Shown: one piece after another, positions 968 to 62,977 of the stretch
Numbering within the stretch: the first letter of the stretch is position 1
How the letters are laid out: each line of letters starts with the position of its first letter
Assembly: GCA_023078555.1 (NCBI GenBank)
Contig: CM041196.1
Coordinates: 6,583,985-6,647,984, forward strand
DNA: 64,000 nucleotides
Origin: Ulva prolifera
Taxonomy: Eukaryota > Chlorophyta > Ulvophyceae > Ulvales > Ulvaceae
Reading direction: 5' to 3'
Program-made: the position numbers and the translations under genes
Notes under the pieces: generated by a model
The model's database searches: none
What the model saw: the letters and a program-made list of their open reading frames with translations, nothing else
What the model was told of the DNA's origin: nothing

Positions 968-3442
968 CATGTCTCCACCCGCGCACAAGGCGTTCCCGCA
1001 TTCTGCCTCTCGCCGCGCCTCTGCGCAGTAGACATACTTGGGCGCAGCGTCGGCTCCAGCGGGGCAGTCAAAGGTCGGCACCATGCGGTCGCTGGAGTAG
1101 TCGATGCACCAGGCTGGCACGATGCGGCTGCCTGCCGGGTCTGCGAGCACCGTGTCCTTGCACTCTGTGTTTGCCGCAGCCCCCACGCAGGCGTCAAAGT
1201 ACTCCCCGTCCCCGGTCATCGGCAGCTCGGCGTAGGCAGTATTGGCACAGAATGCCTTGTCCGCATCGGAGCCCGCGGGAACGGGGTCTGGCGGGCATGT
1301 GCGCTGCGCAGCACGCAGGTGTCAGCAATTGCTTAAGCAGCGGTTGGGTGAGGCACACTGCCAGTGGTCGGGCACTACAAGCAGACAAATTCTTATGGCA
1401 TCAGACGAGGCTACCATGGCGGCACGACCCGCGCCGGGAGCGTGTGTCCCCATCATCGTGTGCAGCATTGATTGGCTGCGCGCACACTAGTGCCAAGCTT
1501 AATTGCAATTGCATCAAAGACTATATATGTGGACATGAGGGAGGCGCACCGATTCCGGGCATGCAGCGCCAGACCAGCACACAAGATCATCGGCATCAGA
1601 GCCCGTGCCTGTGATGGCGTTGTGGTCGTCTCCAGTGCAGCATGGCTCCCCGGGGCGCCCACACGCTGTGCACGCCCCCTCTAGACACATCGCGTTCCCT
1701 GCATGCTTGCATGCCCGCAGGTGAACTCGTTGCCCAGAGTTACCTCCAGTCAGTCCATACCAGATAAGAGAGCTAGAACTGATCACATGCTGGGCGCACA
1801 CCATGACGGCCAGCTGTGGTGCACTGAAAAGAAGAAGCATATGCGTCGCAGGCGACGATACGCTGGGCTTATCATAGAGTTACGTGACGTCTCAACGGCG
1901 GCGAATCGCCTGAGCACTCCTCGTTGCGGGAGAGGCACTTCCAGTGTCAGATGCAATGGAGTTGCAAAGGACCATTGCAGCCGCCCATGACACAACATAT
2001 ATGCACCATCTATCGAACGGACTAAGACACGCATACTCCAGCGTCATCTAGACGCCCAATGTGGTGCCGGACGTCTGCATTCGGGACACCGCAAGCGCTG
2101 TGACGCGTTAAATGTCACCCCTACATGCATTGGCCAGCCCCCCCACCCGGCCCCATATGGGCCCGGGCATGCCCGCAAGTGTGGTGGACCTGACAGGAAG
2201 GTGCATATATGTACGTATGCATGCAGCTGAACAGAGGCTGCATCTGTGCTCACCTGCGCGGCCGCACTGCCTCCACAAGTAGCTGCCGCTGCTGGGACAG
2301 CATGGCTGCCCGAGCTCTCCGCACTCAGCACAAGCGCCTTCAGAGCAGATGCCTCCCGAAGCGCAGTCTGGCGCGGAGTCAGAGTCGCAGCAGGGCTGGC
2401 CCAAGCCGCCGCATGCCTCACACTGCGAGGGGCCGTCGCCTGCCGCACAGCGGAACCCATCGTCGCACTCCCCTGAGCAGCAGGCCTGCCCGGCCTGCCC
2501 ACACCTTGCGCAGGTCGCATCCCCCGTAGATGCGGTGACACACGCGATCGTCAGGGTGTCATTGCTGGCAGTAGAATCACAGGTCGAGCTTCCGTACGAG
2601 GAGGTTTTGCAGCAGGGCTCGTCAAGACTGCCACACTTCTCACAGGTGCTGTTGCCGCCACAGTGCAGTGTCTTGGAGGCCGTCTCGGCGTACCCAGCTG
2701 GACAGTATTCTGTATCTGAATCCCCGAAGCAGCAGGGCATACCATCCCCTCCACACGCCGTGCACGTGTCCGCTATGCATTCAAGGGAGGGGTCATCTTG
2801 ATAGTCACAGACTGCGCTTCCGTACGTGGAGGTTTGGCAGCAGGGCTCGTCAAGACTGCCACACTTCTCACAGGTGCTGTTGCCGCCACAGTGCAGTGTC
2901 TTGGAGGCCGTCTCGGCGTACCCAGCTGGACAGTATTCTGTATCTGAATCCCCGAAGCAGCAGGGCATACCATCCCCTCCACACGCCGTGCACGTGTCCG
3001 CTATGCATTCAAGGGAGGGGTCATCTTGATAGTCACAGACTGCGCTTCCGTACGTGGAGGTTTGGCAGCAGGGCTCGTCAAGACTGCCACACTTCTCACA
3101 GGTGCTGTTGCCGCCACAGTGCAGTGTCTTGGAGGCCGTCTCGGCGTACCCAGCTGGACAGTATTCTGTATCTGAATCCCCGAAGCAGCAGGGCATACCA
3201 TCCCCTCCACACGCCGTGCACGTGTCCGCTATGCATTCAAGGGAGGGGTCATCTTGATAGTCACAGACTGCGCTTCCGTACGTGGAGGTTTGGCAGCAGG
3301 GCTCGTCAAGACTGCCACACTTCTCACAGGTGCTGTTGCCGCCACAGTGCAGTGTCTTGGAGGCCGCCTCGGCATACCCAGCTGGACAGTATTCTTTATC
3401 TGAATACCCGGAGCAGCAGGGCATACCATCCCCTCCACACGC
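968..3442 (-). CDS. cysteine-rich repeat protein, probably secreted (core exons)
   Basis: Three exons join in phase: 3442-2254, 1698-1550 and 1303-968. The first encodes four 76-residue units built on the pattern CxxCGxxGxPCC, followed by shorter, more diverged CxxCGxxGQPCC modules (about residues 300-390). The second adds one more such module (ACTACGRPGEPCC). The third is a different cysteine-rich segment of 112 residues. Regularly spaced cysteines in CG...PCC pairs suggest many disulphides and an extracellular or wall-associated protein. This is inferred from composition, as no catalytic motif is visible. The 5' end is not in this exon: a TGCAG acceptor directly precedes the first repeat. 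A signal-peptide-like exon at 6198-6076 ends in a compatible phase. A hAT element lies between the two. I do not recognise a named family. Confidence 0.6.
2531..3442 (-). repeat. four tandem 228-bp coding repeats
   Basis: Units run about 3442-3215, 3214-2987, 2986-2759 and 2758-2531, each 228 bp (76 codons). Units 2 and 3 read as identical. Unit 1 differs at a few bases in its first third (SGYSDKEY instead of FGDSDTEY). The second half of unit 4 diverges (KTSSYGSSTCD). The near-identity at the DNA level points to recent expansion or gene conversion within the exon. Confidence 0.9.
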
Positions 3443-3527
3443 CTGCACGCAATTTCTGATCAAACATTTGAAGCTGAGTGTGTAGTTCGGCGAAAGTTCT
3501 CATAGAGCTGGCAGCACGACTCGCTGC

Positions 3528-4668
3528 TAGGGCTGTAAATTTAACATCTGGGGGCACGATTTAACGTTAATTAACAAAGCTAAAGTAAAATAAAAGTAAA
3601 ATAGGCTAAAAAATCTTTACTTTAAACGTGTTTTAAACTAATGTTTTCCTGCTTTACCTGTAAAACTGTTAAACATGTGGAGGAGGCAGTTTCGGCCAAT
3701 GGCACGGCACAAACACGGCACAAACACGGCACAAACACGTCCACAGCCACCTAGATACACCTATTGCACCGCCTATCAATTATCTGCGTCTCCTGAGCAA
3801 CTTGACGACGATGGAGATGCTCCTAGGCTGTCAGACTGCAGGCCACATGCTACTGCACCCTCGTTCTGGCACACCAGATCCAGAAGAGTCTTCCTCATAC
3901 ACTTCATCAACAAAACCAAGCAGATGTTCAAAACATCGAATTTCGTCCACAGCTGCATCATTATCGCCTAGGTGATGGAGGTTGATTTTGGTGCACTATG
4001 TCGTTGCCAGCGTACTGTTTTTCATTGACCTTCTCCTGGAGGTCGAGTTGTCTAGAAATATATTCCACAGCCTCTCCACAGTTGCACAGCAGCGCTTCGC
4101 AGACATCATTTCAATGGCAGCCTCTCTCGAGCTCGGCAAACTTTTCAGCAACACCACGAGACACAACATCAGTCGCAGCTGGCTTTCTGCGCAGATTGGA
4201 GCCACCTACATCTGCCGAATCAGCCAGGTTTGCCTGATCGGAACTGTCAGTCTCTTGCAGAGGTTCAGCAGGACGTCTGTCTTGTGCCATGTGTGGAATT
4301 TGCTCACTGCCAAATCAATGACAGCTGCACACGGGCTACAGAAACTGACTCCCACAGCATGAGCAAGCGCATAGCGACACAGATTTAAGTACTAGGAGCC
4401 AGCAACAGGTGTGCTGCGACTTATATCATGACCACCGTGCTTTGTTAGTGATGTCTTGTCCTATGAGGTCGGTCAAAGCCATCAGAATACAGCCCTTTTT
4501 GGCTTCAACTTTGGTTTTAAAGCACCCTTAAAGTTAAAATGCGTGAAAGTAAAATAAAAGTAAAATGACCCCTTTAAAGCCTCGAAATCGTTTTAACGTT
4601 AAAATTGTAAAGTAAAATAGCATTTTAAAGTACGTTAAAATGGGGGTAAAGTTAAATTTACAGCCCTA
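3528..4668. mobile_element. non-autonomous hAT-type DNA transposon, copy 1
   Basis: The element is 1,141 bp with perfect 18-bp terminal inverted repeats starting TAGGGCTGTAAATTTAAC. It is flanked by an 8-bp direct duplication CTCGCTGC (3520-3527 and 4669-4676). An 8-bp duplication and TAGGG termini are typical of the hAT superfamily. Just inside each end is a direct repeat of GTAAAATAAAAGTAAAAT. Near the left end is a short tandem run of CGGCACAAACA-like 12-mers. There is no transposase. The only coding-like stretch is a minus-strand frame from an ATG at 4290 to a stop at 3961, broken once by TGA at 4111-4113. A copy differing at a single base (C4316) lies at 18343-19483. Confidence 0.9.
3961..4290 (-). 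pseudogene. interrupted reading frame inside the hAT element
   Basis: From ATG at 4290 the minus strand reads 59 codons, a TGA at 4111-4113, then 49 more codons in the same frame before TAA at 3961. The product is acidic and hydrophilic and I recognise no hAT domain (no BED finger, no C-terminal dimerisation motif). It may be a remnant of the parent transposase N-terminus, a captured host fragment, or an exon whose stop is spliced out. The second copy of the element carries the same stop. Confidence 0.35.
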
Positions 4669-4676
4669 CTCGCTGC

Positions 4677-6003
4677 GCACGCCACATTTCGAATGCCGAT
4701 GCGCTCTGCTCGGTCGCACGTAAAAACCATCGTATCATTCGGGCACATGATAGAGCTGCTGTCACCAGTGCAGCATCATTCGTCCACGTTGCCACAGCTA
4801 GTGGAAGCCGCCTGCAAGCAGCTGCGTCGTGCATCTTGTTTGATGCAGATTTGTTCGGCCAGGTTCCAAGTGACAGGCGCCTCGCTCGATGTCGTCGGCC
4901 CGATGCCTCAAGGCGCTTTCGGGGGTGGCCGCTTGGAGGAAAGTGTCGCAGGCAGGAAAGTGCGGACATGCAGCCCCTTCAGATGACGTTGAAACTGCAC
5001 TGTCACTGGGGTGATGTCTGATGAACAGGAGAGCGACTAACATAGCAACTGCACAAGAATCACATACACGCCATAGCATGCTAGGGGCAAAAAAGTAGTC
5101 TGGAAATGTTGGCCATGGTCGCAGCCTGTTTTGCGGATGGTTCGCTGGGTGCAGCTGCGACCGCAAGTAGCGAGACGAGTATACGCGCCATTCTAGCTAT
5201 GCTTTGTTGCTGCCACCCGAAACATATCAGACCTGTACATGTCTGCAACGTTGCGTGTGTAGCTGTCGGACACCAGCTTCATGGGGCATGTACAGCCACC
5301 CCGACATCGGCTGTGAGATGGGCGCGTAGTGCAAGCATCAATCCAGCGTCACGGAACCATACAACGCGATCCCAAGTCTGAGCGCTGCGCCGGAAAGGTC
5401 ATTGTTGTGGTGAGCCAGCGAATGTCCACGGCAGTGAAGCATTAATCTAGACGTAGAGCGCGGGCTTGCAATTGACAGCGCTGATGCTCTGCAGCAAGTA
5501 CACCACGACACAAGAGCACATGTACGATGGAAGGGAGCTTGCGAATCATTGCAGCGCTGATTTGGTACGTTTGCGAAAAATCACCGTGTGCAAGGCGCAG
5601 CGGTGCTACCTATACTCGAGATGGAGCTCGTCAACCTGCTCGTGACAATTGCGACTCGCATCGATACATCTGCGTGAACGGACGAATGATGTGAAAGCTG
5701 TACGGTCGTGTATGGACGCAAGCCTCAACACCGTCACGCGCTAACCTGCTAGACTGAGGCTCTGAGGTACAGCTCTCGGAGCAAGCGCGCCGTGATTTTG
5801 TGATCGCCCGTGCGTTTTGATACAGCTGCAGCTAGGGTTGCCCCAAAGCAGCATCGACGCCGCAGAAAAACAATTGACACACAGATCAGCCGGGAGAGCT
5901 GAAGTATCTGCTGGGTTGCAACACATGTCGCTTGGCAGGATACTGGTGTGGGGCTGCAGCAGACCTCGATCGTTACTGTTCAGCGAAGCACCTGGGACAA
6001 GGG
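4677..6003. other. no convincing exon; probable long intron
   Basis: No frame here shows the cysteine spacing of the flanking gene or any known domain. If the signal-peptide exon at 6198-6076 belongs to the cysteine-rich gene, this stretch plus the hAT element forms its first intron. Short frames at 4658-5166 on the minus strand are low-complexity and unsupported. Confidence 0.35.
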
Positions 6004-6070
6004 TATGTTGATGCTGATTCGGATGAGATTCGGTTTCAGTGTTTGTTTTCTCCCGTTCACTCTTTTGTAA
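6004..6070 (+). repeat. 67-bp dispersed repeat, copy 1
   Basis: Matches the reverse complement of 19616-19682 at 64 of 67 positions, starting TATGTTG and ending TTTTGTAA. It lies immediately downstream (minus-strand sense) of the putative signal-peptide exon. The second copy lies about 130 bp from the right end of hAT copy 2. No coding or terminal structure identifies the element it comes from. Confidence 0.75.
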
Positions 6071-6742: not shown

Positions 6743-6767
6743 TACGTCTACACAGGTCGTCGCTCAT
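6743..6767 (+). repeat. left 25-bp terminal inverted repeat
   Basis: Exact reverse complement of 15187-15211 over all 25 bases, with no match beyond on either side. It marks the left end of the Plavaka/KDZ-like element. Confidence 0.85.
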
Positions 6768-9045
6768 ATGCCACTCATATTTACAAGCGTCCACGCTCAT
6801 GCACGGTCGCTTACGCAGGCTCTTATTTACCCCCCCATTTTCCGCATATATATGAGCGGAAGATTTTCGATATGAGCGAGTTTGTTTTTCACGAGATGTA
6901 CAACTTTTGTATTTTCGGCACCAGCAGTGCGAGTTTGAATAGCACCATGTGCATTTGTGTAAGTGTGCTTGCCCGGGCAGTACCCCTGATTGTGGGGGGT
7001 ATGCACCGTCATGTACATGACTGCAGGCTGCAGCTTGGTGGCCAGCAGTCCACCCAGAACAGGCTGTATGCCATGCCCAACAGCAAAGCCACTCGTGGCC
7101 TTGCTGCAGGCGCATGGCACACCCCCCCTCTGCGTGGCCCTGCTCACTGCACCCGCCGCACGCGAGCTGCGTCTGTACGAGCTGCATTGGAGGTGGTCAG
7201 CCCCTCATGTGGCACAGCCCAAGCGGCTTCCGCCTGGGCTGTCACTTGTGGTGCATGCATATGCGTCATCGGCACAGCCCAAGCGGCTTCCGCCTGGGCT
7301 GTCACTAGTGGTGCATGCATATGCGTCATCGGCACAGCCCAAGCGGCTTCCGCCTGGGCTGTCACTGGTGGTGCATGCATATGCGTCATCGGCACAGCCC
7401 AAGCGGCTTCCGCCTGGGCTGTGCCGCAAGCGTGCAAGGCTGTGAGGCTCCTACCTGCCATGGCTCCGAGTCCGTGCAATTGCTGTTTCGAGCTCGTCTG
7501 AAGCTGTTCGGGCAGGCTGCAGCCCCCTTGAAGAAAGTAACCTGTATGCATTGTTCCTTGTCAACCCATACAGCGTTGTAGCAGTTGCAATTGACAATTG
7601 TACACGTACCTGATGTGTCAATGACTCGACGCACGCTGTCGCATTGTCGTAGCTGATGGGACAAACAGGTCATACTCAGGTCTCTCGATGCCAAACGCCG
7701 AACCATGTATGAACTGACCTGCACAAGTAGCTGGGCGACCTGGTCAACCGTCGATGCCTGAACAAACAAACGATCTGCACAGCCGGTGTTACTGGACCGA
7801 AGCCTGAATGCATACGAGTAGGAAACATACTACCTTACTGATCATCGGTCAAAATTGTGTTCTGTGTCTCTCCCATCCATTTGCGCTGAGATGTGTCGTC
7901 TCTGCCTCTTGATCGTCAGTGGCGGTTTCTCGTAACTGTCAAAAGTCAATCACCTGCATCTCTTTTGTAAATAATCACCTGCATTGGATTAGTCTGCTTC
8001 GTCCGCAGGTTCGTGCTTTCGCCGTTTGACAACCAACAGTTGCCTGCGTTGTTACGCCACGATACTACCGACGACACCTGACAACGCGATCTGGCACTGA
8101 TGGATTATCATGACATAATCGCAGCCATTTAAATGCCATGTGATGGACGCTATATGCAAGGCGGGGGGCGCTCTATGGCGCACCAGGTACCCCTTTCTCG
8201 TCATAATGAACGGTGCTAAGAGGACGGTATGACAATCACCCACACTTTATCCATCTGTCGAGTAGAAACGTACTTGTGAAGACATATGTCCTCTGCAGCG
8301 ATGGTACCTCTGCACTGCGGTGCAGCAGCGTTAACGATCAAAAAGGGCGCAATTCTTATCTTCCGGAGCGCACACAACCGACGAAGTGGCATAATAAGAT
8401 TGTCCATGAGGATGCGGTTTGGAAGCTGACATGTACTGATCTGATTTCGTCATGGCTGCGTTAGGCGGAGCCTTCCGTTGACTCGTTTTGTGACAACGGG
8501 GCACTCGCGGCCCGTGTAGCCATGGCCACCGGTGTCGCGTGTGCGTTCTCCTGGGTACCCATCACATCTCTGCTAAAGTCCGTCTCGGCATATCATGTTG
8601 GTTTTGGAGTTTTCTTTGGAAATTCACGCTCGTTTACTTCTTCTTCTGTGGGGCGGTGTTCACCACAAGGCCGTCAGACGTCACTTGTACTTTTTGCCGC
8701 CTGTGCTATGGGTGATGTCAGATCCGTGTCAGACCTCATCCTACGTGTACAGCGACACCCCCTCGTCAGCCCGATCGACCACGCAACACGCGCCTGCTCG
8801 AATCAAACGGGGAGACCAACCGTCCCCGTCGGATTCAACGTGCAGGACGGTTTACGACGGGCGATAAGAAGCACAGCATCTGTACATATTCACGACGTTG
8901 ATTACAGACGCCTCGTGACACCCCCTCCGGCGAGTACTCAGTTGGAAGAGTTACCGACCGGACTGCAGATGTGAAAAGGCCGCACGAGTAATCTACCAGT
9001 CCGTGCGCTAGCGATCCGCCCCGCTGCTGTTTCAAATTTGGATGA
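6768..9045. other. left arm of the transposon, non-coding
   Basis: Apart from the subterminal octamers and the 60-bp tandem repeat, no exon is supported. A 150-codon frame from ATG 8522 ends before the transposase start and has no recognisable domain. The stretch probably holds the transposase promoter and 5' leader. Confidence 0.4.
7211..7422. repeat. 60-bp tandem repeat with internal palindrome, about 3.5 copies
   Basis: Units start at 7211, 7271, 7331 and 7391 (the last is truncated after 32 bp). Each unit has a near-perfect hairpin of CAGCCCAAGCGG against CCGCCTGGGCTG with one mismatch and a short loop. Units differ at a single base after TGTCACT. The repeat is open in several frames only because the unit length is a multiple of three. 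Confidence 0.9.
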
Positions 9046-12000
9046 ATGCAGCCAGCTATTGTATGTGACACGTGCGGGATGGCTATAGTGGGGGCGCCAT
9101 GTAGAGGCGCGCTAGCAGCACACAGAAGGCATTGCAGGGGTTTCATCACGAAGCGGACCACAGCAGACCGGTTATACAATGAACGGGTACTTACAAAATT
9201 GACAAACAATCAGGCCGCTGCAAGCATTACCAACAGACTGGCTACCAGATCTGCAGAGTCTATGATACTCCCCAGCGGTCCTCAAGCAGAAACAGCCCAT
9301 GATCCAGCAGAATACAATCACACCACCAAGCCCCACCTCGCCCCAGCCCAGCCAGGCACCAACAAGGGTCTCTACGGACAGGATCTCGGTGAACCAGAAT
9401 GTGAAACGGAGTGCAAGCCTGAGTGCAATACGGAGACAGCAGACACAGGTTGGCCAACCTTTACTCTTCCAGACGCTACGAGTGAGGACAACTCCGAACC
9501 CGACAGTGATGGAGAGCAACCATCAGGTGCATCTGTACCTGCATACGTCGAGAATATGTTGATAGCGAATGATATCATTGCATGGATGCTCAAAGACCTT
9601 ACAGCAGTACAGCAAAGGAATTACTTCATGGGGGTGCGCCTGCTGGAAGTGCTGAGAAGGCAGACATCCCGACCTGAGCACGAGAGACGGCCCACGATCC
9701 ATACAGTTGAAGCACTGAATAAATACCTGGATGACAAAGCAGACAAGTACCGATGCAAGATGACAGCCAGGGAAGTACCTATTGTATCAGATCACGCATT
9801 ACTCAGGCAATTGGCCCCGGTCCCATTGTTCATCAGGCCAATCGCTGAAGTGTTGAGCTGCTCGCTTCAGAATCCTGTCATCGAGAACTGCAACATACGC
9901 ATGGATCCAGTCAGTACCTCTGAGGGCTCCCTCGACGCTGACATGGCAGGCAGAGTCGTGAGTTTCATGCACGGCTCGGCTGTACGCCAAGCGAAGCAGG
10001 TTCCGCTCCCCTCGTAGAAGGCAGGGCGACTTTGTATGAGTTACAGTCATGCACCACAAACAGCTGATGGTGGGGCGACGTGCAGGCTCGGATTCATGCC
10101 CGGATGCAGGGCGGACTAGGGTTAGCAGAGTCCACAAGGCCCATTTTCGCAGTGGCAATATTCTTTGACAAGACCCTGATCAGCCCAATTGCCAAAAGGT
10201 GACCTCTCTTAAAAGGACAGTGGTTTGACAAGCCTGTGCTGCATGATCGACCACACCCTATCCGGCAGAGTCAACAGTAGCCTGGGACTGCAGCATATAG
10301 AGACAGATCTAGATAAGCCAATGCGTGCTGCTGCAGTGAGCTGTACCCTATATTTGTGGCACCGATGAATGTAGATGCCAGTCTGCGTCAGAATGCGATA
10401 CAACTACTGTGCATGGTCCCAAATGTGAAGGAATGGGTACTTGCACAGAGGCCAAAAGGCCAAGAGCATGTACGCGTGGCAGACATCGACGCCGCTATAA
10501 GTGCCACCACCGCAGCGATGTGGAAGGAGATGCTCAGAGATATAGGGACGGCTACGCAGCCAGAATGCGGAGTGCGCTACCCCCGCCAATGTTGGTCCGG
10601 GATGACGAATGGTCCAGATCCAAGAAGGGGAATGGTATCCGGACGGCATATGCACTCAGCATGTTACAACCATGCGTGCCTGATCTGGTGCAGGTATGGG
10701 TGAAATTTCACAAGGATAGAGAAGAATTGTTACGCCACAGCAGTGTCGAGCCGGCGTTTGATTCAAGAGGTCCCTACCTGACAGCCCATTGCGACGTAAT
10801 GGTGGGTACATTGATTATGGACACCGTAGAGGCTGCAGCTACAATGGGGCTGATGCAGCGATTCGCGTTTAGGCTTGACAGCGTCAATGGAGGCACAGAT
10901 GCCGCCTGTTTGCTATGCCACACCTCTACATGCAAATTTGACCTCGCAGCACATGAGCTTTCCCCAGAAGACCGCAAACACCGGAGTCCCAGAGAAGCAG
11001 AAGCAATACGAGAGTCAGGGTCAAAGGCAGAGATGAAAAGACAAGGCAAGTCCCGGCACAGGAAGCCTACAAATCTGTAATTGTGGCATAGCAAAGGGTT
11101 CCACAAAACGAGTAACGAAGGATACGGCGACAGATCAAACTGGACCTTATGAAGCGTGCCACGTCTGAGTCTTGACCACTCGTGTTGTGCAGGCATAAAA
11201 GCCTCTAGCCCAGCACTACAGAGCATATTCTGGGACTCGCAGTTTGAGTGGGGCGCCCTCCCAGAGTTGTGGGGGGTGGACCACCTGCATCACTGGACAC
11301 TAGGCGTGATGAAGCGATTCGGGCTGGATCAACTGAAAGTATGTTGCATGCTATGTTGTATCATGCTCCCGTGGTGGGGGTCGCGCCACACCGCTACAAT
11401 TGTCCCACTCAGTCAAATCCGTAAGCTTGTGTAAAATGACTATTTCTCACAAGTGCAGAGCATAATATCCCTACTGGCCGGGCTTGGAAAGGAGTTAGGG
11501 AGAAAAATCACAAAAGCAGAGCTCACCGATCGCCTTAATTATTTGTTTGACGAAGTAGCCGTCTTTGTGGTCCCACCCTTTGCTTCCCTTCCCCTGGCCT
11601 TCAAGGGGGGCTTAGTGGGACCAAGCGACACAGTGGGAGGCGGCAAGCTCCAAGGTGCCGAAATGAATCGTGTTCAGGCTGTGTTAACGTACGTTGTTGA
11701 CGGACTGCCGGGCGCGGCACACACGGCGGCTCCACTGGCACTGGCACGGTAAGAACTCTCCGGCTCCAGCCCCATAGTGGCCCATGAGCTCTGCAATGCC
11801 ACCCTACATATTTTATGGGCATGATGGATGAAGTTCAGGTCGGATAGAATGCAGACTCACAGCGTTGGGGGCTTTGCTCTTGAGAGACAACCTTTCGTAC
11901 GTGGGCTGGACTGAACAGGAAGCAGATGGCCTTCAAGATCACATCGGACATGTGTTCCTCCCTATCATGCGCAAGTTTTTGGAACAACTTCATGACAGCA

Positions 12001-13207
12001 GTGAAGCGTTGACACAAGCAAGGGTACTGAAGACGCATCTGGTCGTTTCACACGCAACAGAAAAAATGATGACACATGGCGGATTACAGGTGCGAACACA
12101 AAATCATGTGCCTGCCCTGCAATCCACAACGATCAGTACTCTGGCATGCTATACTGCGGCAGCGGAACCGCAACAGCCCTGGCAAGGCCGAGGGGATTTC
12201 AGACACAACACCCCCCAGCGTCAGTCGGGATGAGCTATGGTGGAGGTAACATTCATGACGCTCGTGACCAGTTCACATGTGCAGGAGCACAACACGAACA
12301 TATACGAAACTGTACACAAAGACCAGAAGAAAATAGTGAGGATGACAAACATGGCACCGCAAACCTGGCGCGAAATGCATGCCATACATGCCAGTAGATG
12401 GCAATCGCTTGTACACGAGGCCTACATGAACCCGGGATTGGGTGCTTTATTGTTTGGGAGAATCACAGCCACCTCCATTGTGACCGAGCTGCACAACAGA
12501 GAGGACCCGGCACAGGGAACACGGCAAAGGATCATAGACAAAGATCCCCCAAGGTCAATGCAGAAGAGAGAATCGGCGCCGATAGTCCGACACATTCAAC
12601 TGGACCACGTCGCAGCGGTCCACCGAACCGGGAACGGCAGCACGTTCCGTACCAGATTATTTTACCTTGTAGTTCCCCCCACCCCGCCTCCCCTACCCCG
12701 GCCGGTTTTTAGCCAAGACTGTGTGAAAGACGTTGACCACAGGGATGGTTGACTGTGAGACGCGCACTTACACATGCAGGTACTCCTGGCAATGGCAGAG
12801 GCACAGAGAGGGACACCAAGACAATTGCGTGGGAGCCCGTGCGCCGCTATAACGGAGGCGGCCGGGCTCGAAGGGGCTGGACGGCAACAAGCGCGGTGTC
12901 ACAGCATTCGGATGGAAGCGATCAGGCGCCTTCAGGAGGGCGAGGTGAGTGCCCCGGTGCGGGCTGGGCTAGAGACTGCGATCACAAACGGGGTTGTCGT
13001 CGATACGGCACAACAGGTACTGGAGTTGCCCGAGCTACTGTCACTGCCGTACTGCTTGGAAAAGTATCTGGGGCAGCAGGTCGAAGAGAATCTTCGGACA
13101 ACGGGAGGCTTGAAGCAGACACTTCTGAGGCTGTGTTTGGTGACCAGCCCGAACATCAATGTGACGTACTACAACCACGGTGACGCAGGCAGTGCCCACC
13201 TACGGCA
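9046..13207 (+). CDS. Plavaka/KDZ-like transposase (multi-exon)
   Basis: Exons I can support: 9046-9957, 10110-10198, from 10337, through about 11080, 11193-11338, 11459-11748, 11855-12089, about 12240-12400, and 12780-13207. The first opens with a C2H2-like finger (CDTCGMA...HRRHC, residues 7-29), as Plavaka-type proteins often do. The second and third join in phase to give IFFDKTLISPIAKR then SELYPIFVAPMN, which matches the conserved Asp strand (YSDxTxL...G...PIY) of these transposases. Later come a CLLCH zinc-binding stretch, PELWGVDHLHHWTLGVMKRF (Asp/His block) and HNTNIYETVHKDQKK (Glu/His block). These are landmarks of the fungal and algal Plavaka/KDZ group as I know it. No in-frame stops break the supported exons, so the gene may be intact. 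Boundaries around 10560-11080 and after 12400 are uncertain. Confidence 0.65.
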
Positions 13208-13249
13208 GGTGCGTTCCGAGAGGTACCAGGAGCCCCTCATGGGGTGCAG

Positions 13250-14194
13250 AGATATGCAGTAGCCATCAGCACATGCGACGGGGCCACTGCCACAGGCCAA
13301 AAAGGCGGCCGAAAATGGATCTCGGAGATTCGGAGCTTGCAGGTGTCTTTCATGAACAGACCAAGCCACTTGAACTTTTTCTTGACGGACAGCGAAGTGC
13401 AAGAGACGACAGACAAGGAACTCGAGGCCAGACAGAACAGCATCAACTATCGCAAACAATTCAACGCCGTCATAAAGGGGGAGTCTTCCCTTCCACCCAC
13501 TAAATGGGTGTTTCTATTATGTACAGGACTTACGATGCTGGTATGCAGACCGGACGCAGCAGGGTCTGGGTTCACCGAGTTGCGGGTGGGAGACTCGGAC
13601 ACGAATCCGAAGGAGCGCACGGCTCAAGTCAACCTCCTGAGATGGTTACACCGCCTGCGCCCACAAAGACGACGAAATGTATCTTCTGTAAGTAGTCTGC
13701 TGCAGAGGGCAGACCCAAATGCCGAATTCTACGGATGCGACCGCATGGTGTGGTCGCGGATTGGGGAAGCAGAATACCCAGCGGACATTAGACACCTGAA
13801 TCAGAAAATTGCGGAAGCTGGACAAGAATCGAAGCTACGGAAAACGGTACGTCCAGGTAGCAAACGGAAGGATACAGACATCGCCGCAGAAGCGGCTGCA
13901 GTCACAAAATGTCGAGGCGCACTTGATGGTTTCGGGAAAGATCGACTAAGAAGTGATGATGCATACAAAGGTATTGCGTTTTGCGCGATCGCTGCACCGT
14001 GTCAGACTGCCACACCAGTCAGAGTCCTTCCAGTGCTTGGGACAGAGCGAGTGGACCAGTGGCGACCGGTGAGCGATAAAACTGTCGCAGGGAGGCGGTT
14101 TCGCGAGTTTGAGAGATCGCAGGGATACAAACTGAGTAGCTACTACCAGTTTCGGGTGGATTTGACTGCCCAGCCGCGCGGATACGAGGTGTAA
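13250..14194 (+). CDS. C-terminal exon of the transposase or second element gene, function unknown
   Basis: A 314-codon open frame follows the transposase exons and ends at TAA 14192-14194. It has no good ATG at its start, but begins after a TGCAG acceptor (RYAVAIST...), so it is more likely a 3' exon than a separate gene. The product is basic, with long charged and helical stretches. I recognise no domain. If it is the same protein, the transposase is unusually long at its C-terminus. A candidate intron joining it to the previous exon (13208-13249) would be only about 41 bp, which is short. Confidence 0.4.
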   Translation, partial: RYAVAISTCDGATATGQKGGRKWISEIRSLQVSFMNRPSHLNFFLTDSEVQETTDKELEARQNSINYRKQFNAVIKGESSLPPTKWVFLLCTGLTMLVCRPDAAGSGFTELRVGDSDTNPKERTAQVNLLRWLHRLRPQRRRNVSSVSSLLQRADPNAEFYGCDRMVWSRIGEAEYPADIRHLNQKIAEAGQESKLRKTVRPGSKRKDTDIAAEAAAVTKCRGALDGFGKDRLRSDDAYKGIAFCAIAAPCQTATPVRVLPVLGTERVDQWRPVSDKTVAGRRFREFERSQGYKLSSYYQFRVDLTAQPRGYEV

Positions 14195-15186
14195 TATTTG
14201 ACGCAAGTGAGACCCGGTTACACCTGGTCGTGCACAATCGGCACGTCGCTGGTGACAGGCAAGACCAACAGTCTGAGTCGTCAACGCATATCGCATAACA
14301 CACCATGTATCTGTGTATCGTATCGGAAGTAATGCTTCACGGGGTGGCGGTGAGACCGCCGACGCTGTCGGTGCACATGATCACGACGTGATCGTCTTTG
14401 CTATGCAGCCCACGAGGACGAGGCGTCGACCACAAACTGCTGTCACAAAACATGCACCAGATGGTAGACTGTGCAGGCTTAACCTGTGCGCGCCCAGATG
14501 GGAGGACATTATCGAATGATAAACAGACCCGTACAGCTTTGTGCGCGGGCCTGGCCACAGGCGTGTAGTGTTTGACTTCTCCCGTGATCTCTTTTGTTAT
14601 TATTCCATATTCGTCAGACTGCATTCCTGGTTCATCGCCGATCACCCTCTGCGCCACACTCACATTCAAGCGCCAGAGCCGAAACAGACCGCTCTCAGAC
14701 CCGCGGTAACCGACCATGGTTACCTGAAGGCTGTTCGGCCATCATGCCTTCATCATCATTCATCATTGATCAATCCATGTGCCTAGAATGGTGGTCTTCA
14801 AGTCGAAAGCCAGTCTGAATAAGAGCGAACCGGCCGGGTCCATCACCGATGCTCGTGGTGCATAAAATCAGCAGATTGCACGTATGTCAAAGTTGCTAAT
14901 GCAGACCTCGGGATCGTCGTGATAGCTTCCACCAGCACCTTTACCAGCGGTCAGCGCGAGCGTCCCCGCGCAGAGCAGTCCTGCATGCTTTCGGCAACGG
15001 ACTCTTCATCAAATGACGCAATCTGGCCAGGTACAGGCCTTGACCATGAAATTGCAAGGCTATTCAACCGCACGAGCCGAATTTCGGTATGCTTCCAATG
15101 ATGTCACATTCTCCAGGTCAGCGTTTCGACCCAAACATGGTGAACTTACCGCTCATATTGCCGCTCATACGGAGGCGCTCATACGC
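14195..15186. other. right arm of the transposon, non-coding
   Basis: No exon is supported. Three copies of the subterminal octamer CGCTCATA lie within 40 bp of the right inverted repeat. The rest has no visible structure. Confidence 0.5.
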
Positions 15187-15211
15187 ATGAGCGACGACCT
15201 GTGTAGACGTA
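15187..15211 (-). repeat. right 25-bp terminal inverted repeat
   Basis: Exact reverse complement of 6743-6767. The preceding 40 bp hold three CGCTCATA motifs oriented towards the repeat. Confidence 0.85.
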
Positions 15212-17701: not shown

Positions 17702-18342
17702 AGGGCCACATGCATGCCAGCCGCGCCACGATCACCGCAGGGCTATGCATCCGCCATCGATCCGGCTAGGGCCTCCAGACTTCACCTGCTTCACGTTCAC
17801 AGATTCAGAGATTTGTACGGTGTCTGAGCTGCTCGCGTACACCTGCATCGATGTTGCTCGAGCTCATGCATGTGTCCTGTTGATGCGGAGGAGACTTGTG
17901 CTGTGATTGCAGTCTCAGCAAAAGACATGTCACGCTGTCTGTGCACGCCCGGGCCCGTTCACTCTGCTGTAATAATCATGTGGCCCAGAGCTGACCCGTT
18001 CTTCCCAGGTTTTGTGCGCACTTGCAATTGGTGTTACAGAAGAGTTGATTTTGTGCACACTTTGACCAGCCAGTGCACACGCGCCAAATCTGGGCACACT
18101 TTGACAACTTTGCTGTAGCTTCCACAACGCTGTGGCAGCGTGTGCGCACTGACAGCGCCGAGAATACGGCGTCCTTGTGGCCACGTGGTGCACGTACATG
18201 TACATGTGGCGCCATGGGGTGTATCTGTGCTTGCGCCCCTCAATCAAACGTTCACGAGCGTGAACCATCATTTATGTTTCAGGGTAAAGGCTGCCACATG
18301 CGAATCTCTTGCGTCTGCGGCTGTGTACGCTCAACTGTATAC

Positions 18343-19483
18343 TAGGGCTGTAAATTTAACATCTGGGGGCACGATTTAACGTTAATTAACAAAGCTAAAG
18401 TAAAATAAAAGTAAAATAGGCTAAAAAATCTTTACTTTAAACGTGTTTTAAACTAATGTTTTCCTGCTTTACCTGTAAAACTGTTAAACATGTGGAGGAG
18501 GCAGTTTCGGCCAATGGCACGGCACAAACACGGCACAAACACGGCACAAACACGTCCACAGCCACCTAGATACACCTATTGCACCGCCTATCAATTATCT
18601 GCGTCTCCTGAGCAACTTGACGACGATGGAGATGCTCCTAGGCTGTCAGACTGCAGGCCACATGCTACTGCACCCTCGTTCTGGCACACCAGATCCAGAA
18701 GAGTCTTCCTCATACACTTCATCAACAAAACCAAGCAGATGTTCAAAACATCGAATTTCGTCCACAGCTGCATCATTATCGCCTAGGTGATGGAGGTTGA
18801 TTTTGGTGCACTATGTCGTTGCCAGCGTACTGTTTTTCATTGACCTTCTCCTGGAGGTCGAGTTGTCTAGAAATATATTCCACAGCCTCTCCACAGTTGC
18901 ACAGCAGCGCTTCGCAGACATCATTTCAATGGCAGCCTCTCTCGAGCTCGGCAAACTTTTCAGCAACACCACGAGACACAACATCAGTCGCAGCTGGCTT
19001 TCTGCGCAGATTGGAGCCACCTACATCTGCCGAATCAGCCAGGTTTGCCTGATCGGAACTGTCAGTCTCTTGCAGAGGTTCAGCAGGACGTCTGTCTTGT
19101 GCCATGTGTGGAATTTGCTCACTGCCAAATTAATGACAGCTGCACACGGGCTACAGAAACTGACTCCCACAGCATGAGCAAGCGCATAGCGACACAGATT
19201 TAAGTACTAGGAGCCAGCAACAGGTGTGCTGCGACTTATATCATGACCACCGTGCTTTGTTAGTGATGTCTTGTCCTATGAGGTCGGTCAAAGCCATCAG
19301 AATACAGCCCTTTTTGGCTTCAACTTTGGTTTTAAAGCACCCTTAAAGTTAAAATGCGTGAAAGTAAAATAAAAGTAAAATGACCCCTTTAAAGCCTCGA
19401 AATCGTTTTAACGTTAAAATTGTAAAGTAAAATAGCATTTTAAAGTACGTTAAAATGGGGGTAAAGTTAAATTTACAGCCCTA
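18343..19483. mobile_element. non-autonomous hAT-type DNA transposon, copy 2
   Basis: 1,141 bp, same orientation as copy 1, offset 14,815 bp, differing only at 19131 (T against C4316). The 18-bp terminal inverted repeats are intact. The flanks CTGTATAC and GTCGTTGG do not match, so there is no target-site duplication. This is unexpected for so young a copy and suggests recombination or a deletion at one edge after insertion. Confidence 0.9.
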
Positions 19484-19903
19484 GTCGTTGGCGTCACGGT
19501 GCACGCGTACGTGGCATCTCAGCGAGGTAGCTATACCTGCGTAGCGCTTTCTCAGGTGTGAAGCTCCATGACGTGAAGCGAACAAATCCAATTCTGAACA
19601 GCTTGGCTGTACATATTACAAAAGAGTGAACGGGAGAAAACAAACACTGAAACCGAATCTCATCCGAATCAACTGCAACATACACTCACACACACACGAA
19701 CACCACAACCGCACTCACAATTCAGTCCGGCAGGATCGCGTCCTCCAGGCCCGCATCATAGGCTGTACATATGTGTTTCAGCGCTAGCTGGACAAGTACT
19801 TCCCCAGCTCCAGCCTACTTGCGTGCATAGTATGCACACCCCCGGGGCCCATATCGAGGACATGTGCCACTGTGGCAAGACCTGCAGCATTATTATTGCA
19901 GCT
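19484..19903. other. no gene seen
   Basis: Holds the second copy of the 67-bp dispersed repeat and a short CA-rich run near 19685. No exon is supported. Confidence 0.5.
19616..19682 (-). repeat. 67-bp dispersed repeat, copy 2
   Basis: Reverse complement matches 6004-6070 at 64 of 67 positions. The three mismatches cluster next to the TATGTTG end. Confidence 0.75.
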
Positions 19904-21503: not shown

Positions 21504-22815
21504 TCAGAGAGAGATACGGGGTTTATTGACTAGTCGCTTCCCAAATCCGTCGGGCTTCAGTCTCGGCCCCAAGAAGTATGCCAGGATGAGCCCTGCCACA
21601 AAGCCACCAGCATGGCCCCTGCACGCATGCAGATTCATCAGAGAGTGGCTGGCCCAAGACTCTGTACGCATGCAGATTCGTTAGATTGCCGTGAGTGTGG
21701 CTTGCCCAAGCCTCTGTATGAATGCATGCACACGGCTGAGAGACTTGCCGCAGGACTGGCCAGCAGTCAGCGACACCTTTAGCCGGTTCAGCGATCCATG
21801 AGCAAGTACAACTATGCAAATGCCAACTTGCAACTCTGCGTCTCACTACTGAGCGCCGCAGGGATCATGAACGCATGAATGCCCAAACATTCAGCCCTGG
21901 TCTCCCAGGCCATAGCACTGCCAAGGCTTCTATACGCATACAATACAGCATGACCACAAGTGTATGCATACTGGTTGGTAGAAGCTAGAATTACTGTGGC
22001 TTAGACTTCCATGTTGCACCTCGCAGTGACTGTATTGCTCATGGGCTGTACAGCGCTCACAACAGGCACACAACAACGCAGGAGTTGCGCACCAGTTGTC
22101 TACTCGTGCGATGAATGTTCCCAGCACTAGGTTGATCATCATCGTCTGGAAGATGCTCTGCTGAGCAGCTTTGGCCCCTCGCGAAAGGTACGGCTTGTTG
22201 TTTTCAAAGTACATCCAGGTGGCGCTGAACATGCCAAACACAGATCCTGAAGCCCCTAGAGAAGGCACTGGGCTGAACAAGAAGGAGGCAATGGATCCGC
22301 CGAGGCCAGAGAGCAAGTAAAATGCTGCAAAGAGCTTGGGCCCGAGGTTTCGCTCCATGCCTGACATTGAGTCAAGAGCATACATGTTCATCTGCATACT
22401 CACAGCTTCATGATAGCATCCATGTATGAATAATGCTTCACAGAATTGGAGTAAGCACGGGGGGTTTGCCTCGGTGCGCGGGGTCTGCCAGCTGCAGCAC
22501 CCCAGCAAAACGTGACCGGTCGAGACCAAGGCAACACAGGAAAAGTAGCACAGTGCCGAGGAGGCAGGCGGATGAACGGCCATGTAGAAGTGCCTTACCC
22601 CGATGTGCAGCATGCCTCCATGAAGGAATGTGCACGTCAGCAATCTCCACCACTCCCCAGCCACAATCGATGGATTATGCTTGACTCCCAGCACGGTCAG
22701 CTTTGATCCCCAGAGAAAGTCCAGAGCGAAGATTAGGACATTTGCAAATATGAAGAAGTCGGTGACACGGCGATTTTTTCTTGCCTCCCATCTCTGTGCC
22801 AACGTGGGCGTTGGA
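21504..22815 (-). CDS. rhomboid-family intramembrane serine protease
   Basis: Exons 22815-22599, 22391-22093 and 21618-21504 join in phase. The order of motifs is that of rhomboids: a first membrane segment (VTDFFIFANVLIFALDFLW); the WWRLLTCTFLHGGMLHI loop; MNMYALDSMSG...ERNLG; the serine helix with GASGSVFG; and the histidine helix DNWGHAGGFVAG, split across the last intron. Both catalytic residues, the Ser of GASG and the His of WGHAGG, are present, so it should be active. Sequence order and the NxY/ER motifs are closest to plant organelle rhomboids (RBL8-11 type), by memory. The N-terminus is unresolved. A basic, Ser/Arg-rich leader that could be an organelle presequence is encoded on the same strand at 23165-22953, but I could not fix the intron joining it. 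Confidence 0.85.
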
Positions 22816-22952
22816 CTGCAACGCACACCAACGTCATTGACATGATGTGTTTCACGGAAGTTGAAATGAAACCAGCCTGGAACATTAGGAAAATATGCTG
22901 TGCAATGTAGCGGCTGCCATATTCTATGCTTTCTCCTTGGACTGGGGCACAA

Positions 22953-29600: not shown

Positions 29601-32600
29601 TATGCTCAGCGGTACCACCTGTAACACCTTTGTAATCTGCACCGGCCCGTACAACTGCCATCTTGCATGTATGTCTGGCATGCGTATCATCACGCCTAGC
29701 CCGATGTGCAGCAATGGAGGTGCTGTCCTTCGCGGCCGTCATCGGCGGCGACCGCGCCGCCGTCGCGACGACGCGCATGGCTTGCGCGCGCCTCACCGCC
29801 GCCACCGCGCCGCAGCCGCCGTCCGCCCCGGCGGCGGCCGCCACGGGCGACCCCCGCCCGTGGGCGCTCGCGCTCGGCGCCGTGCACCGCTCCGTCGGCG
29901 GCATCACCCTACAGCCACTCCTCGCGACCATCGTCACCGCGCTCACGGCGTACGCGCGCTGCGACGGCGCGATGCGCGGCGCGGCCGGCGCGCCCGTGTT
30001 TGCGCTGCACGCGCTCTACCTCGTCATGGCGTCGGCGTTCGGGCCGTCGGGGTGGGTGGAGGTGGTCATGGACACAGCCCTGGACGCGCTCATGCGTGGG
30101 GGCGCCGCGTCGGCGGCGGCAGCGGTGGTGACAGCGATCGTGGAGGTGCAAGGCCCGGAGTTCTGCCCGAGCAGCCGTACACACCCTGTGGCAGAGTGCG
30201 ACCCCTCCCCCCCTCCTCCCCCGCTCTCGTGGCGGTCACGGGTTGCTCCATTTCTGTATGCATGGGTGGTACCTGCGTTTGCAATTGTGAACACTTGGGA
30301 GGTGTCGAAGAAGTGAGCGGCAGCAGTGTTGCTTGAGAGGCAGTGTTCGTGAGCGGATCGCCACAGCCCCCGGGCTGGGGGTCGTGTCTGGTTGTCTGGT
30401 TGTTTTGCGCTGCCACGTTTGCAGGTTGAAACAAGGGTCCTGGCTGCATGCGATGCATGAGGCGTGTGTGACGTGGGCACTTGTCACCGTGCTTTCAGGA
30501 AAACTGTGGCTTTCCTGCTAAATGGCATGCTGTCGTGTGGCTGGTGTAGCGCGTTTGTTGAGAGCTGTTGTGCACATCACGGCAGCGACACTACGCAACT
30601 CGCATCGAGCCGAGTGTTTGCCAGTCTGCAGTCTAAGCGCCGGGGTTCTTCCATTGCCCGGCCACACTCCCAGTGTCGCTTTCACTATTGCTTTTGATGA
30701 CCTGCCAGTGATGCACTTGTGTTGAGGCCAGTCATGTCTGATGGGCTGCCTTACGAACAGTGCTCGAAATTCCACTTGAGGAACTTTATCTGTTGGTCGG
30801 AGGGCTAGCCGCCAGGCTGTGACAGGTGTTATTTATGTGTTGGTGTTAGCTGTTGAGAGCACCCCATCGACCTGTTATGTGTCTTCAGTGAGTCACGAAG
30901 CCGTGGCGCGCCTCTGAGTGGAAGTGGCACCAGTAAGACACAAGCTGCTGACCGCTGCAAAACCTCCCCAGGCAACGCTTGCAAGGGCACACGTAAGCTG
31001 GGCCACCACCAACCATTCGCATCGAGGTATCTGCGCGTTGCGGTGGGTCATCCCCAGTGTGGCTCAACAACAATGTGAATCTTACGTAGGGTGACCTGGT
31101 AGAGGTTGTCTTTACATTCCTTGGCAGCGTCATGTCCTCTTCCTCTTGAGATGATTGGCGGAAAGGCACCATGAGTTGTGAATGAGGAACCAACTGTACG
31201 GGGCCTGAGCTGTCTGACCTTGAGCTCATTGGTTGCTTCATTCGCTCACACTGCCCTCACAAGGCCGAAGCGAAATTGACTGCATTTTGTTTCAAGTTTT
31301 TGGCCGTCGTCGATGCAGATTCGTCAATGTTCGGCTGGGTGTCAATTCAGTGACGAGGGTGAGTGCCAGCTTGGCGAGTCCAGACGGTCGCATCGCCACA
31401 TCCGAAAGCTGCCGTAGACTGAGCCATCAACGACCTTATTTAGTGACTTGTCTTGAAAGTCGCCTTGCGCTGAGGCTGTCTCTGTACGACAGGGCGGCAA
31501 CGTGTCGGCGGCATTGTAGCCGGACGTGTCAGCAAAGCGCAAGCCACGATCATGATATTCCGTTCTCCGCCGTACTCATCGTTATAACGTCATAATTTCA
31601 TGCTGCTAGTCTTGTCCTGGGTATGTCGTAGGCGCGGTGTGGGTCTCGGCAGGATGTGGATTGGTCCAGTAGGATAGCTGAAGCTGAGATACAGGTTTGA
31701 GCAGTACACAGAATATCCACCAGGACGCCCGGCGTTCCTCAGTGGTCATCTGCACGCAGGCTGCCGGGGCTTTGACAAGCCTTGTGCACAGGCGTCGTTG
31801 TTGCTGTGAATGTTGAACGTTTGTACCAGCATAAACCTGGTACTGGCGGAGAAGGGAACATCAGAAGCAGCCTTGGCGCAGTTGGCTAGCGCGTAGGTCT
31901 CATAACACATGATCCACTAACAGTGGGAGCGAGAGCCATCCTGAGGTCGCCGGTTCGAGCCCGGCAGGCTGCATTTTTGCCCATATTTTTACCACAGGAG
32001 ACTGTTTTGGTCGCTGGTGAGCACGATCACTACCTGTGGCTGCTCGGCCCCAACGCCCCGCACAGCAACAGCAGTTGCCGGCTGCATTTCCTGCCTTGTC
32101 CGCAATTTGGCCGTACGCCCACTTCCACGCAAGCCTGTGATGGATGAAGTTCGCACCTGTGCAGGGTCATCATGGCGGCTGTTGGCCGCGTCGATCTAAC
32201 ACTCTCGGAGCGGCCCCCGGCCGACGCGACGGCGGCAACGGCGCAGCGGCTGTGGTGCGCACGCAACATGATCGCCTTCGCTTCAGATGTCCCCAAGCAC
32301 ACGCACCTGCCCGTGCTGCTCGCCAACCTGCACGCGCCGGTGGCCACTCTCCGCCACGTCGCCGCCGCCGCGCTGCACCAGATCTCCTCCACCAACCTCG
32401 GTGCGCCTCAACACCTCTTCCAGCAGCACGCAGCACACAGCACGCGGCGGGTGATCGGTGAACCGCGTGGGCTGCATATTCAGCCCTGGCAAAGTTCTGA
32501 CACGTGCTGAGGGCTATATGTGGCGTTCTCAGAGGGATGTCCTGCATTGTAATGTGTTGTTGTTGTTGTGTCTAGCATTCATGTTGACAGGGCGCTTTGC

Positions 32601-60258: not shown

Positions 60259-62977
60259 ATGGCTATGCTCGGGCGATATATTCTCCTAGGCCTTCTTTCA
60301 TCACTTTGCGTGCATGTCTATGCGCAGCTTCATGGCGAATCCAAGTTGAAACGCCTTGCTGTGATCGGAAGTGGCATGGGGGGAGCCACTGCTGCGTGGC
60401 TCATCCACAATGCAACAGGATGCCATGTGACCGTATTCGAAGCGTCAGACATAGTTGGAGGGCGTTTGAAAGAGACTGTCATAGACGAGCGTGTGGTGGA
60501 GTTGGGGGGAAGCATTGGCATCGAGGCGAATCGCTACTTCGTCGAAACCACGGACAGGCTTCGGCTAACGCGACGATCCCAACCGCCTTCAAGTGTTGGT
60601 ATATGGGACGGCAAGGAGTTTATTTTTAGATCCAGCGATTCTCTGCTTTCGAAGTTCTTCAGGTGTGTTATACCGGCTCTATGCTGGGCAACAATTGACC
60701 TCGGTTGTGCCCCAACACTCTGGCGAGAAGAGCCATCCACTAATTGCTTCACTCCCTTCCCAGCCACGTGACTGCGTCACTCAATGCAAACATGGGCGGC
60801 TCATAGATCCGTTGACAATCTACCGATGATGCGTAAGCGGAGGCAAGCATGCAGATATGGAGTGTCCCCGTATGTCCTGGGTCCAATCGTCAACGACGCA
60901 GTGGAGAAATTCGATCAGGTGTACAACCTACAAGAGGCTGGTAACGCCTATGAGACTGCAGAGGAGTTGTGGGAGGCGTTGGGCCTGGCCCCCCTCATGA
61001 ATGTCACCCTGCACGACTACCTCCAGGATGCATCACGCTTCCTCGGGTTTCCACTCATCAACCACAACTTCATCACAGAAGCTGCAGCTGCCTCCACCAG
61101 AGTCAACTACAACCAGAACCCGAGTGTCATCACAGCCCTAGCAGGTACTCCCTCTGATGAGAGCTCTCCCCCTCCCCCTGCGCATCATCCACATGCAGTG
61201 CTGCATGCCACACTTGCCCACATGCGCTGCGGCGGGAGATGAAGGCCGTCAGCGGAGCGCTGCACGGCTCATGCCTATTCCAGGCAGCGGCTGCTGGATC
61301 TGTGTGCGCATCATGTGTCCTTCATGCAACAGCCTGTGATGCACATCTCGTCCGTGCACAGTATCTCCACTCTGCGCGAGTCACTCGATGCTGCATCTGG
61401 ATCAGTCACAGGTAGCCCCTCTGGGGTACTCCCACAGCCAGGCCACACTCTGCGCTTCACGCTTCCTCACCACCGCTCCACGTGTCAAGCATGCCTGCAC
61501 CTTCCACTGCCATTCCTTCAGGATGACCGAATGCAGCGGAGGTCGGCAGCAGACGATCCGATTCGACCGCGTGGGCGCGCGTGTGCGCCATCGCCTCTCA
61601 TATGCACGGAGAGTCGCCATCGTCACGTAAGGGAATGATCCTGGCCGACAAGTTGGGGCCCGGATGACAACTTACAATAACTTATGTCATTGCATTGCAG
61701 CGCAGCAAAGCATACCACAAGGCACTGCCATCAAATGCATTCATGCAAAGGTCTCCCCAACACAGCTTATGGCCTGGATGTGGTAAGCCGTACATGGTAT
61801 GTGGCAGGCGTGGCATGCCCACCCAACCTCCCCCCCACTCCCCTCCCCTTCCACTCCCGTTGCGCTGCACCCATGCTGTCCTGATACCGAGCTCATCAGG
61901 GCTCTACAGGTGGTTTTCGTTCGGGCGAAAGAATCGATGCCTCGCGTCGCTCACCATCGCGAATCCCCTGTTTTTTCTCTCTGTCCAGTTATGACGGGAA
62001 ATCGATTGGATTGTAGACCCTTGGTGCTCATTCTGTGGTCCCAGCATGCAGGCCTCATCGCGCTCGCACCAAACGACGGAGCCTTTACAGTCGACGGCGG
62101 CACCGGCCAGATGCCCGCAGGCCTGCTCGCACTCGCCAACGCCGACATCAAGCTCTCGCACAATGTCTCCGCCGTCCGCCGCTCCGGCGCCTCGTGGAAA
62201 GTCACCGCCAGCAACACCGCGGCGCAGCTGGGGGGGGGCCCCCTTCACAGCGCCGACCCCAGCGGTGACGCTCACGGCGATGAGGGGGTGGGCGGGTGGT
62301 GGGGGGACGACACGTTCGATGCTGTCATCATCGCGGCGCCACTGAAGGAGTCTGGGATATTGATCGAAGGTATTGAGGGTGCCTCGGCGGGCGGTCCCGG
62401 CAGCGGCAGCCACTCAGCCACGCCGGGGGGCACGATTGACTACCAGACAGTGTACACAACTTACGTCAAGGCAAAGCTACGGCCGGAGTACTTCTATCCA
62501 GGGACTGGTGCAGTGGGAGGTGAGGCTGCAGCGGCTCTGCGAGCGGATGCAGAGCTGCCGGGATTCATCGGCACGAGTGAGGGCAGTGCGGCGGGCTTCT
62601 CATGCATCGGGACGCTGAACGCGTCAGTGGATGGCAATGGCACCCGGCTGATGAAGCTCTTTTCGCGGGAGAAGCTGCAGCAGGAGCTGCTGGACAAGAT
62701 GTTTGTAGCGCCGGAGGTGCCGGCGGAGAAGCGGTGGGAGGCGTACCCGGTATTTAGGGTTCCGGAGCGGGAGGAGGGCCGCATGCGCGTCGCGGGGGGG
62801 CTGTACTACGTCAATGCGCTGGAAGCCGGGGCGTCGTGCATTGAGATCGCGGCTGTGGCGGCCCGGAACGTCGCGGCACTGCTGCTGCGGGATTTAGCGC
62901 AGGGGGAGATTGTGGGCGGAGTCGTGGCGGCTGAGAGGGCTGCAGCTGACAGCCTCACGGCTCAGCAGGAGTTGTGA
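60259..62977 (+). CDS. PCYOX: prenylcysteine oxidase (farnesylcysteine lyase type)
   Basis: Exons 60259-60662, 60855-61144 and 62052-62977 give 539 residues with phases closing. Residues 1-22 are a signal peptide (MAMLGRYILLGLLSSLCVHV). An FAD-binding dinucleotide fold follows at once: AVIGSGMGGATAAW (GxGxxG at 37-42), then FEASDIVGGRL (61-70). Other family landmarks are ELGGSIGIEANRYF, the SPYVLGPIVNDAVEKF region, RVNYNQNPSVITALAG, DGGTGQMPAGLL and a C-terminal VAGGLYYVNALEAGASCIE. The enzyme oxidises the thioether of farnesyl- or geranylgeranyl-cysteine released from degraded prenylated proteins, giving cysteine, an isoprenoid aldehyde and hydrogen peroxide, in a lysosome/vacuole-type compartment. 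A Gly/Asp-rich insert at about residues 285-310 (DPSGDAHGDEGVGGWWGDD) looks lineage-specific. The 907-bp second intron has no supported exon. Confidence 0.9.

Follow-up and report, generated by a model that had tools for sequence, protein, structure and literature searches.

Two exact 25-bp inverted repeats, at positions 6743–6767 and 15187–15211 of the 64-kb window (the whole stretch of DNA that was analysed), enclose a multi-exon gene and raise the question of whether the locus is a complete transposon, and of which kind. On base composition alone, chance would produce about 2e-6 such 25-bp pairs in the window. An earlier note had read the locus as an apparently complete transposon related to Plavaka and KDZ. 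Its completeness is borne out by true ends, a target-site duplication, an intact transposase gene and many genomic copies. Taken as a single joint statement, it is highly probable that the locus is a complete and recently moved cut-and-paste transposon of the EnSpm/CACTA-Plavaka-Transib (CMCT) group, with Plavaka as its nearest relative.

The ends of the element were placed first by the repeats themselves. The pair is exact and lies 8.47 kb apart, as the earlier note had stated, but the repeats do not form the element boundary: each consists of a 23-bp terminal inverted repeat (TIR; CGTCTACACAGGTCGTCGCTCAT) and a TA target-site duplication, which appears inverted because TA is self-complementary. 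The transposon thus measures 8465 bp on the plus strand (6745–15209), with the left TIR at 6745–6767 (plus strand), the right TIR at 15187–15209 (minus strand), and the duplicated TA at 6743–6744 and 15210–15211; the 15 copies compared, together with one empty site, establish these boundaries. Two other placements were ruled out. The full 25-bp repeat cannot be the true end because its outer TA is the target-site duplication, and with CACAGG as a CACTA-like end the element would have no flanking direct repeat.

A search of the source genome (88.9 Mb, 44 contigs) with the element ends for further copies and empty sites, which the earlier note had put forward, delivered both. A 20-bp end piece gave 74 matches at up to three mismatches, 41 of them exact, compared with 21 for the reversed control pattern. 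Fourteen genomic stretches were compared, one of which (L018) stops before its right end; together with the window copy and the pair L005/L006, this yields 15 copies with both ends. CGTCTACACAGG is found at both ends in all 15, with one base changed in one end each of L020 and L022. Exactly outside CGTC..GACG, 14 of the 15 copies carry a 2-bp direct repeat, which reads TA in five copies, AG and CA in two copies each, and TT, GA, AA, GG and CC in one copy each. Shifting the boundary leaves matches in only 0–2 of the 15 copies, except at +2 and +6, because the TIR itself contains the palindromes CG and TA there. The sole copy without a duplication is L011 (TC versus TA). Copy L013 lies in a tandem array, and its flanks, joined by one TA, are found uninterrupted (120/120) within that array, 224 bp further upstream; this sequence is a perfect empty site.

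Sequence comparison of the copies bears on when the element moved. Five of them (L009–L013) differ from the window copy by 7–12 substitutions over ~8.47 kb (99.8% identical), L014 and L015 differ from it by 62 and 58 substitutions, respectively, and L022 is ~97% identical to it over most of its length. A 5-bp stretch in intron 5 is present in L009–L013 and absent from the window copy, L014 and L015. Because several almost identical copies lie elsewhere in the genome, the movement is taken to be recent, and it is included in the joint statement above. If the copies were instead segmental duplications or assembly repeats, identical flanking sequence would be at home in this picture, and one pair does show it: the right flanks of L011 (C2:10796324–10805587) and L013 (C4:9346263–9355526) are identical over 397/397 bp, while their left flanks differ, which points to recombination between the two copies or to a misjoin in the assembly. 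The other copies, however, each have flanks and a 2-bp duplication of their own, placed at the same exact boundary (14/15), and the perfect empty site speaks against segmental duplication. We regard an origin of the copies other than transposition as extremely improbable.

The exons of the transposase gene were set by comparing the window with four relatives from the same genome, three at ~50% identity (L053–L055) and one at 32% (L056). All ten lie on the plus strand. Exon 1 (9046–9999) begins with an ATG at 9046, directly upstream of which a stop closes the frame, and encodes a zinc finger at ~9064–9135. Exon 2 (10086–10198) encodes FFDKT with the first Asp (FFDK, 10161–10172) and is followed by exon 3 (10337–10571). 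Exon 4 (10694–11045) holds MDTVEA (10817–10834), with the candidate second Asp, and CLLC (10907–10918), and exon 5 (11193–11338) holds LWGVDHLHH (11267–11293). After exon 6 (11459–11748) come exon 7 (11855–12089), with the H(4)H motif HLVVSH (12036–12053), and exon 8 (12285–12668), with YETVH (12303–12317) and its candidate catalytic Glu. Exon 9 (12780–13208) and exon 10 (13343–14194), which runs up to the stop codon, complete the gene.

Joined, the ten exons give 1329 amino acids plus a stop, uninterrupted in the window and in seven further copies (L009–L014 and L022), and all nine splice-site pairs are present in each of these; the gene of L015 carries a frameshift. This single open frame agrees with the earlier proposal that the exons splice in phase across the finger and the FFDKT, VDHLHHW and ETVHK blocks. 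Eight introns are GT-AG. Intron 4, which follows exon 4, is GC-AG in the window; L013 has GT at this donor, and the relatives have GT rather than GC. In an alignment that allowed for splicing and used the window protein as guide, intron position and phase are as in the window for nine of nine introns in L055 and for eight of nine in both L054 and L053. The missed introns fall at apparent frameshifts, and one further bridged stretch in L055 is a 1.6-kb insertion; the genes of L053–L055 are damaged, or seemingly so, by a stop, a frameshift or an insertion. Judged from these sequence comparisons, the ten exons would be spliced in this manner in the cell.

The gene has also been held in shape. Between the window and L022, the exons differ by 1.7% versus 2.8–3.9% in introns and flanks, with a dN/dS of 0.38; against L014 the dN/dS is 0.31. 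Against L012 there are three non-synonymous and no synonymous codon changes, too few to weigh. By these ratios the transposase gene is under purifying selection. The element is probably autonomous, and may be active at present.

The predicted protein shows, as read from its residues, the order D..D..C(2)C..H(4)H..E of the CMCT group. The motifs F[FY]DK, [ML]D[TS][VP]EA, CxxC, LWGxDxLHH, HxxxxH and [YF]ExxH follow one another in this order in three lineages with 32–49% identity, and C506-C509, H758-H763 and E783 are kept in all three. C(2)C and H(4)H are a likeness to Transib/RAG1. In all three lineages the Glu lies 20 residues after the second His, which we take to be the spacing in RAG1 (RAG1 numbering). 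In a profile search against solved structures in the PDB, no RAG1 chain appeared among the matches at E up to 10; the best match, at E 0.68, was to unrelated enzymes, and none was convincing. The predicted fold of exon 10 alone was uninformative (mean pLDDT 34.7).

Catalysis would be of the DDE type, with D346, D477 (or D468) and E783 as candidate residues. The Asp of MDTVEA (residue 477), which lies before CxxC, is the stronger candidate for the role of second catalytic Asp, ahead of that in VDHLHHW, because in the accessible part of Kojima 2025 (PMC12730594) this residue precedes C(2)C; on that motif order, VDHLHHW was set aside in this role. The N-terminal finger reported in the earlier note is present, but conservation with a relative makes it C2HC, not C2H2; it is a DNA-binding candidate.

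Assignment within CMCT was approached through these motifs, the ends and the target-site duplication, for which the accessible part of Kojima 2025 (PMC12730594) supplies the frame. There, C(2)C plus H(3-4)H occurs in all CMCT lineages, a group to which Transib, from which RAG1 derives, also belongs. CA..TG termini are usual in CMCT and not obligatory; the Plavaka termini are of two types, TGT..ACA or CATCA..TGATG; and target duplications measure 2 bp in PlavakaA and 2–3 bp in PlavakaB. The motif order gives strong grounds to expect that the protein works like a CMCT transposase. The element is like EnSpm/CACTA in this order (PMC12730594, as accessible) but does not start with CAC, and its duplication is 2 bp versus 3 bp in fungal EnSpm (same source). 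With the fungal PlavakaA/B described there, it shares the 2-bp duplication and the placing of C(2)C and H(3-4)H ahead of the last Glu. In contrast, its CGTC..GACG ends match neither Plavaka type, and its termini are CG..CG rather than the usual CA..TG of CMCT.

Profile searches point in the same direction with little force. The Pfam Plavaka model (PF18759) left all three versions of the window protein unmatched (947, 1329 and 540 aa), a further difference from Plavaka. It matched two of the four versions of the relative L054, at E 0.0021 for the 1015-aa version and E 0.00061 for the 530-aa core, leaving those of 888 and 1315 aa unmatched. The match is strongest at the first-Asp block, and its best score (19.5 bits, L054 core) is below the cut-off of 26.3 bits. 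Plavaka is nonetheless the only Pfam-A family that the 1015-aa version and the core match at E up to 10. Both versions of the distant relative L056 (702 and 480 aa) were unmatched by PF18759, and the model run by itself against the genome found nothing, in a search in which the controls were silent too. Matches to DUF2711 (E 0.16, window core) and Bestrophin-like (E 0.049–0.081, exon 10 frames) were disregarded as chance-level. No relative was found in plasmids (megablast), IMG/VR or GTDB genomes.

The Plavaka claim of the earlier note is therefore upheld in part: motif order and the 2-bp duplication fit it, whereas the termini and the PF18759 cut-off do not, and the profile search of the spliced protein returned only the weak, sub-cut-off match in L054. 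These same discrepancies are what a separate CMCT lineage of superfamily rank, lying outside Plavaka, would account for. It would be characterised by CGTC..GACG ends, a 2-bp duplication, a 1.3-kaa C2HC-finger transposase and, within a single genome, three or more diverged branches, of which one would still be moving. CGTC..GACG is not among the termini described in the accessible part of PMC12730594, and Pfam matches are absent or sub-threshold; set against this, no Pfam family other than Plavaka scores twice, its match being strongest at the first-Asp block, and the length of the duplication is that of Plavaka (same source). We consider such a new lineage conceivable but unlikely. We place the element nearest to Plavaka with moderate confidence and treat it as a diverged CMCT family of Plavaka-like type, a formal place in Plavaka being at most tentative. 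It is a far-diverged branch, with unusual ends, of a known broad transposon group.

The same evidence bears on KDZ (Kyakuja-Dileera-Zisupton), with which the earlier note had grouped Plavaka. KDZ elements have been reported in Chlamydomonas. The duplication here is 2 bp versus the 8 bp stated for Zisupton in the accessible part of Kojima 2025 (PMC12730594), where the C(2)C..H(4)H..E order is that of CMCT and Plavaka should no longer be grouped with KDZ. Pfam searches of the protein versions gave no KDZ match to the transposase, and the Pfam KDZ model (PF18758) had no match in the genome, where the controls were equally silent. KDZ membership was rejected on the 2-bp duplication and is very improbable. 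Nor did the suggestion that the element might travel with a TET/JBP gene hold: no such Pfam domain was found in the transposase or in the 11 non-transposase open reading frames of at least 120 aa that overlap 6745–9045 or 14195–15209, a search that a gene in small exons could escape. None of these 11 frames has a Pfam match better than E 0.02. Many Plavaka families are likewise without a TET/JBP gene.

As the earlier note had observed, an octamer is repeated inside both ends of the element. TATGAGCG occurs six times in the window, against a whole-window expectation of 1.7, and all six occurrences lie within the terminal ~140 bp of the element, among them those at 6851 and 6871 (6851–6878, plus strand) and at 15150, 15162 and 15176 (15150–15183, minus strand). 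The core 7-mer ATGAGCG is found 13 times in the window, eight of them within these same terminal stretches; it lies inside the TIR and is repeated beside the TIR at both ends. Plant CACTA elements carry short subterminal repeats in a layout of transposase binding sites. The ATGAGCG layout is as expected of such sites, and by this analogy the motifs are probably binding sites of the transposase.

In a second element group (L018–L020), ATGGGCG mostly replaces ATGAGCG in and beside the TIR. The idea that the end motif co-varies with the transposase type was dropped: relatives A and B, compared at their right ends only, as their left ends were not found, have CGCCCAT within the right TIR and, immediately internal to it, ATGAGCG, and L020, with one ATGAGCG, undercuts the idea further. 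The element also contains a 60-bp tandem repeat (7211–7422), whose unit number varies from 3.5 in the window to ~5.5 in L015 and ~7.5 in L014 by BLAST coordinates.

Based on these features, we propose a plausible mechanism for movement of the element. The ATGAGCG motifs, terminal as well as subterminal, are probably bound by the 1329-aa zinc-finger transposase that the element itself encodes, presumably an enzyme of the DDE type. The transposase would then excise the element at CGTC..GACG, and insertion at a 2-nt staggered cut would leave 2 bp duplicated, whatever their sequence.

Some elements share these ends but have no complete transposase gene. L016, L017, L020 and L021 have family-type ends and no transposase match beyond chance, whereas L018 and L019 combine family-type ends with only the last part (end of exon 9 and exon 10) of a diverged transposase. 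Exact 2-bp duplications flank all five testable elements of this kind (L016, L017, L019, L020 and L021), which fits mobilisation in trans. L017 (5.4 kb), L021 (4.0 kb) and L016 (6.5 kb) carry family ends around middles that are mostly unrelated to the family and related to each other; these three form a group of non-autonomous derivatives.

Fungi are the best-known hosts of Plavaka-type elements. EnSpm-Plavaka elements have been named in the green alga Auxenochlorella in the accessible part of PMC12636532, so the kind is already known in green algae. Among the open-licence papers listed in searches on Plavaka, algal Plavaka and Ulva transposons, we found no description of the family to which this element belongs. 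It remains one family of known mechanism. The full set of features described here, from the ends, target duplication and empty site to an unbroken gene of many exons, comes with different termini and widens the CMCT group. As its gene is intact in near-identical copies, the element is a candidate working transposon and a possible tagging tool in its host.

Several other features were observed in the window. Two 1157-bp copies, 99.6% identical (3527–4681 and 18342–19498), flank the transposon on both sides and have inverted ends around CTAGGGCTGTAAATTTAAC; the pair looks like a short non-autonomous TIR element. A 56-bp sequence, present in exact inverted orientation at 6015–6070 and 19616–19671 and resembling part of the left flank in both L012 and L019, is a dispersed repeat. 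At 2588–3449, a 228-bp unit is repeated 3.8 times at 98% identity inside a 463-aa minus-strand open frame, which had no Pfam match at E 0.1. Open reading frames for a rhomboid-family protein (21930–22952, minus strand; E 4.7e-19) and a prenylcysteine lyase (61787–62977, plus strand; E 6.3e-31) are likely host genes. Finally, a tRNA gene on the plus strand (31867–31973; Rfam, 49.5 bits), missed by ARAGORN in bacterial mode, probably contains an intron, because it is 107 bases long.
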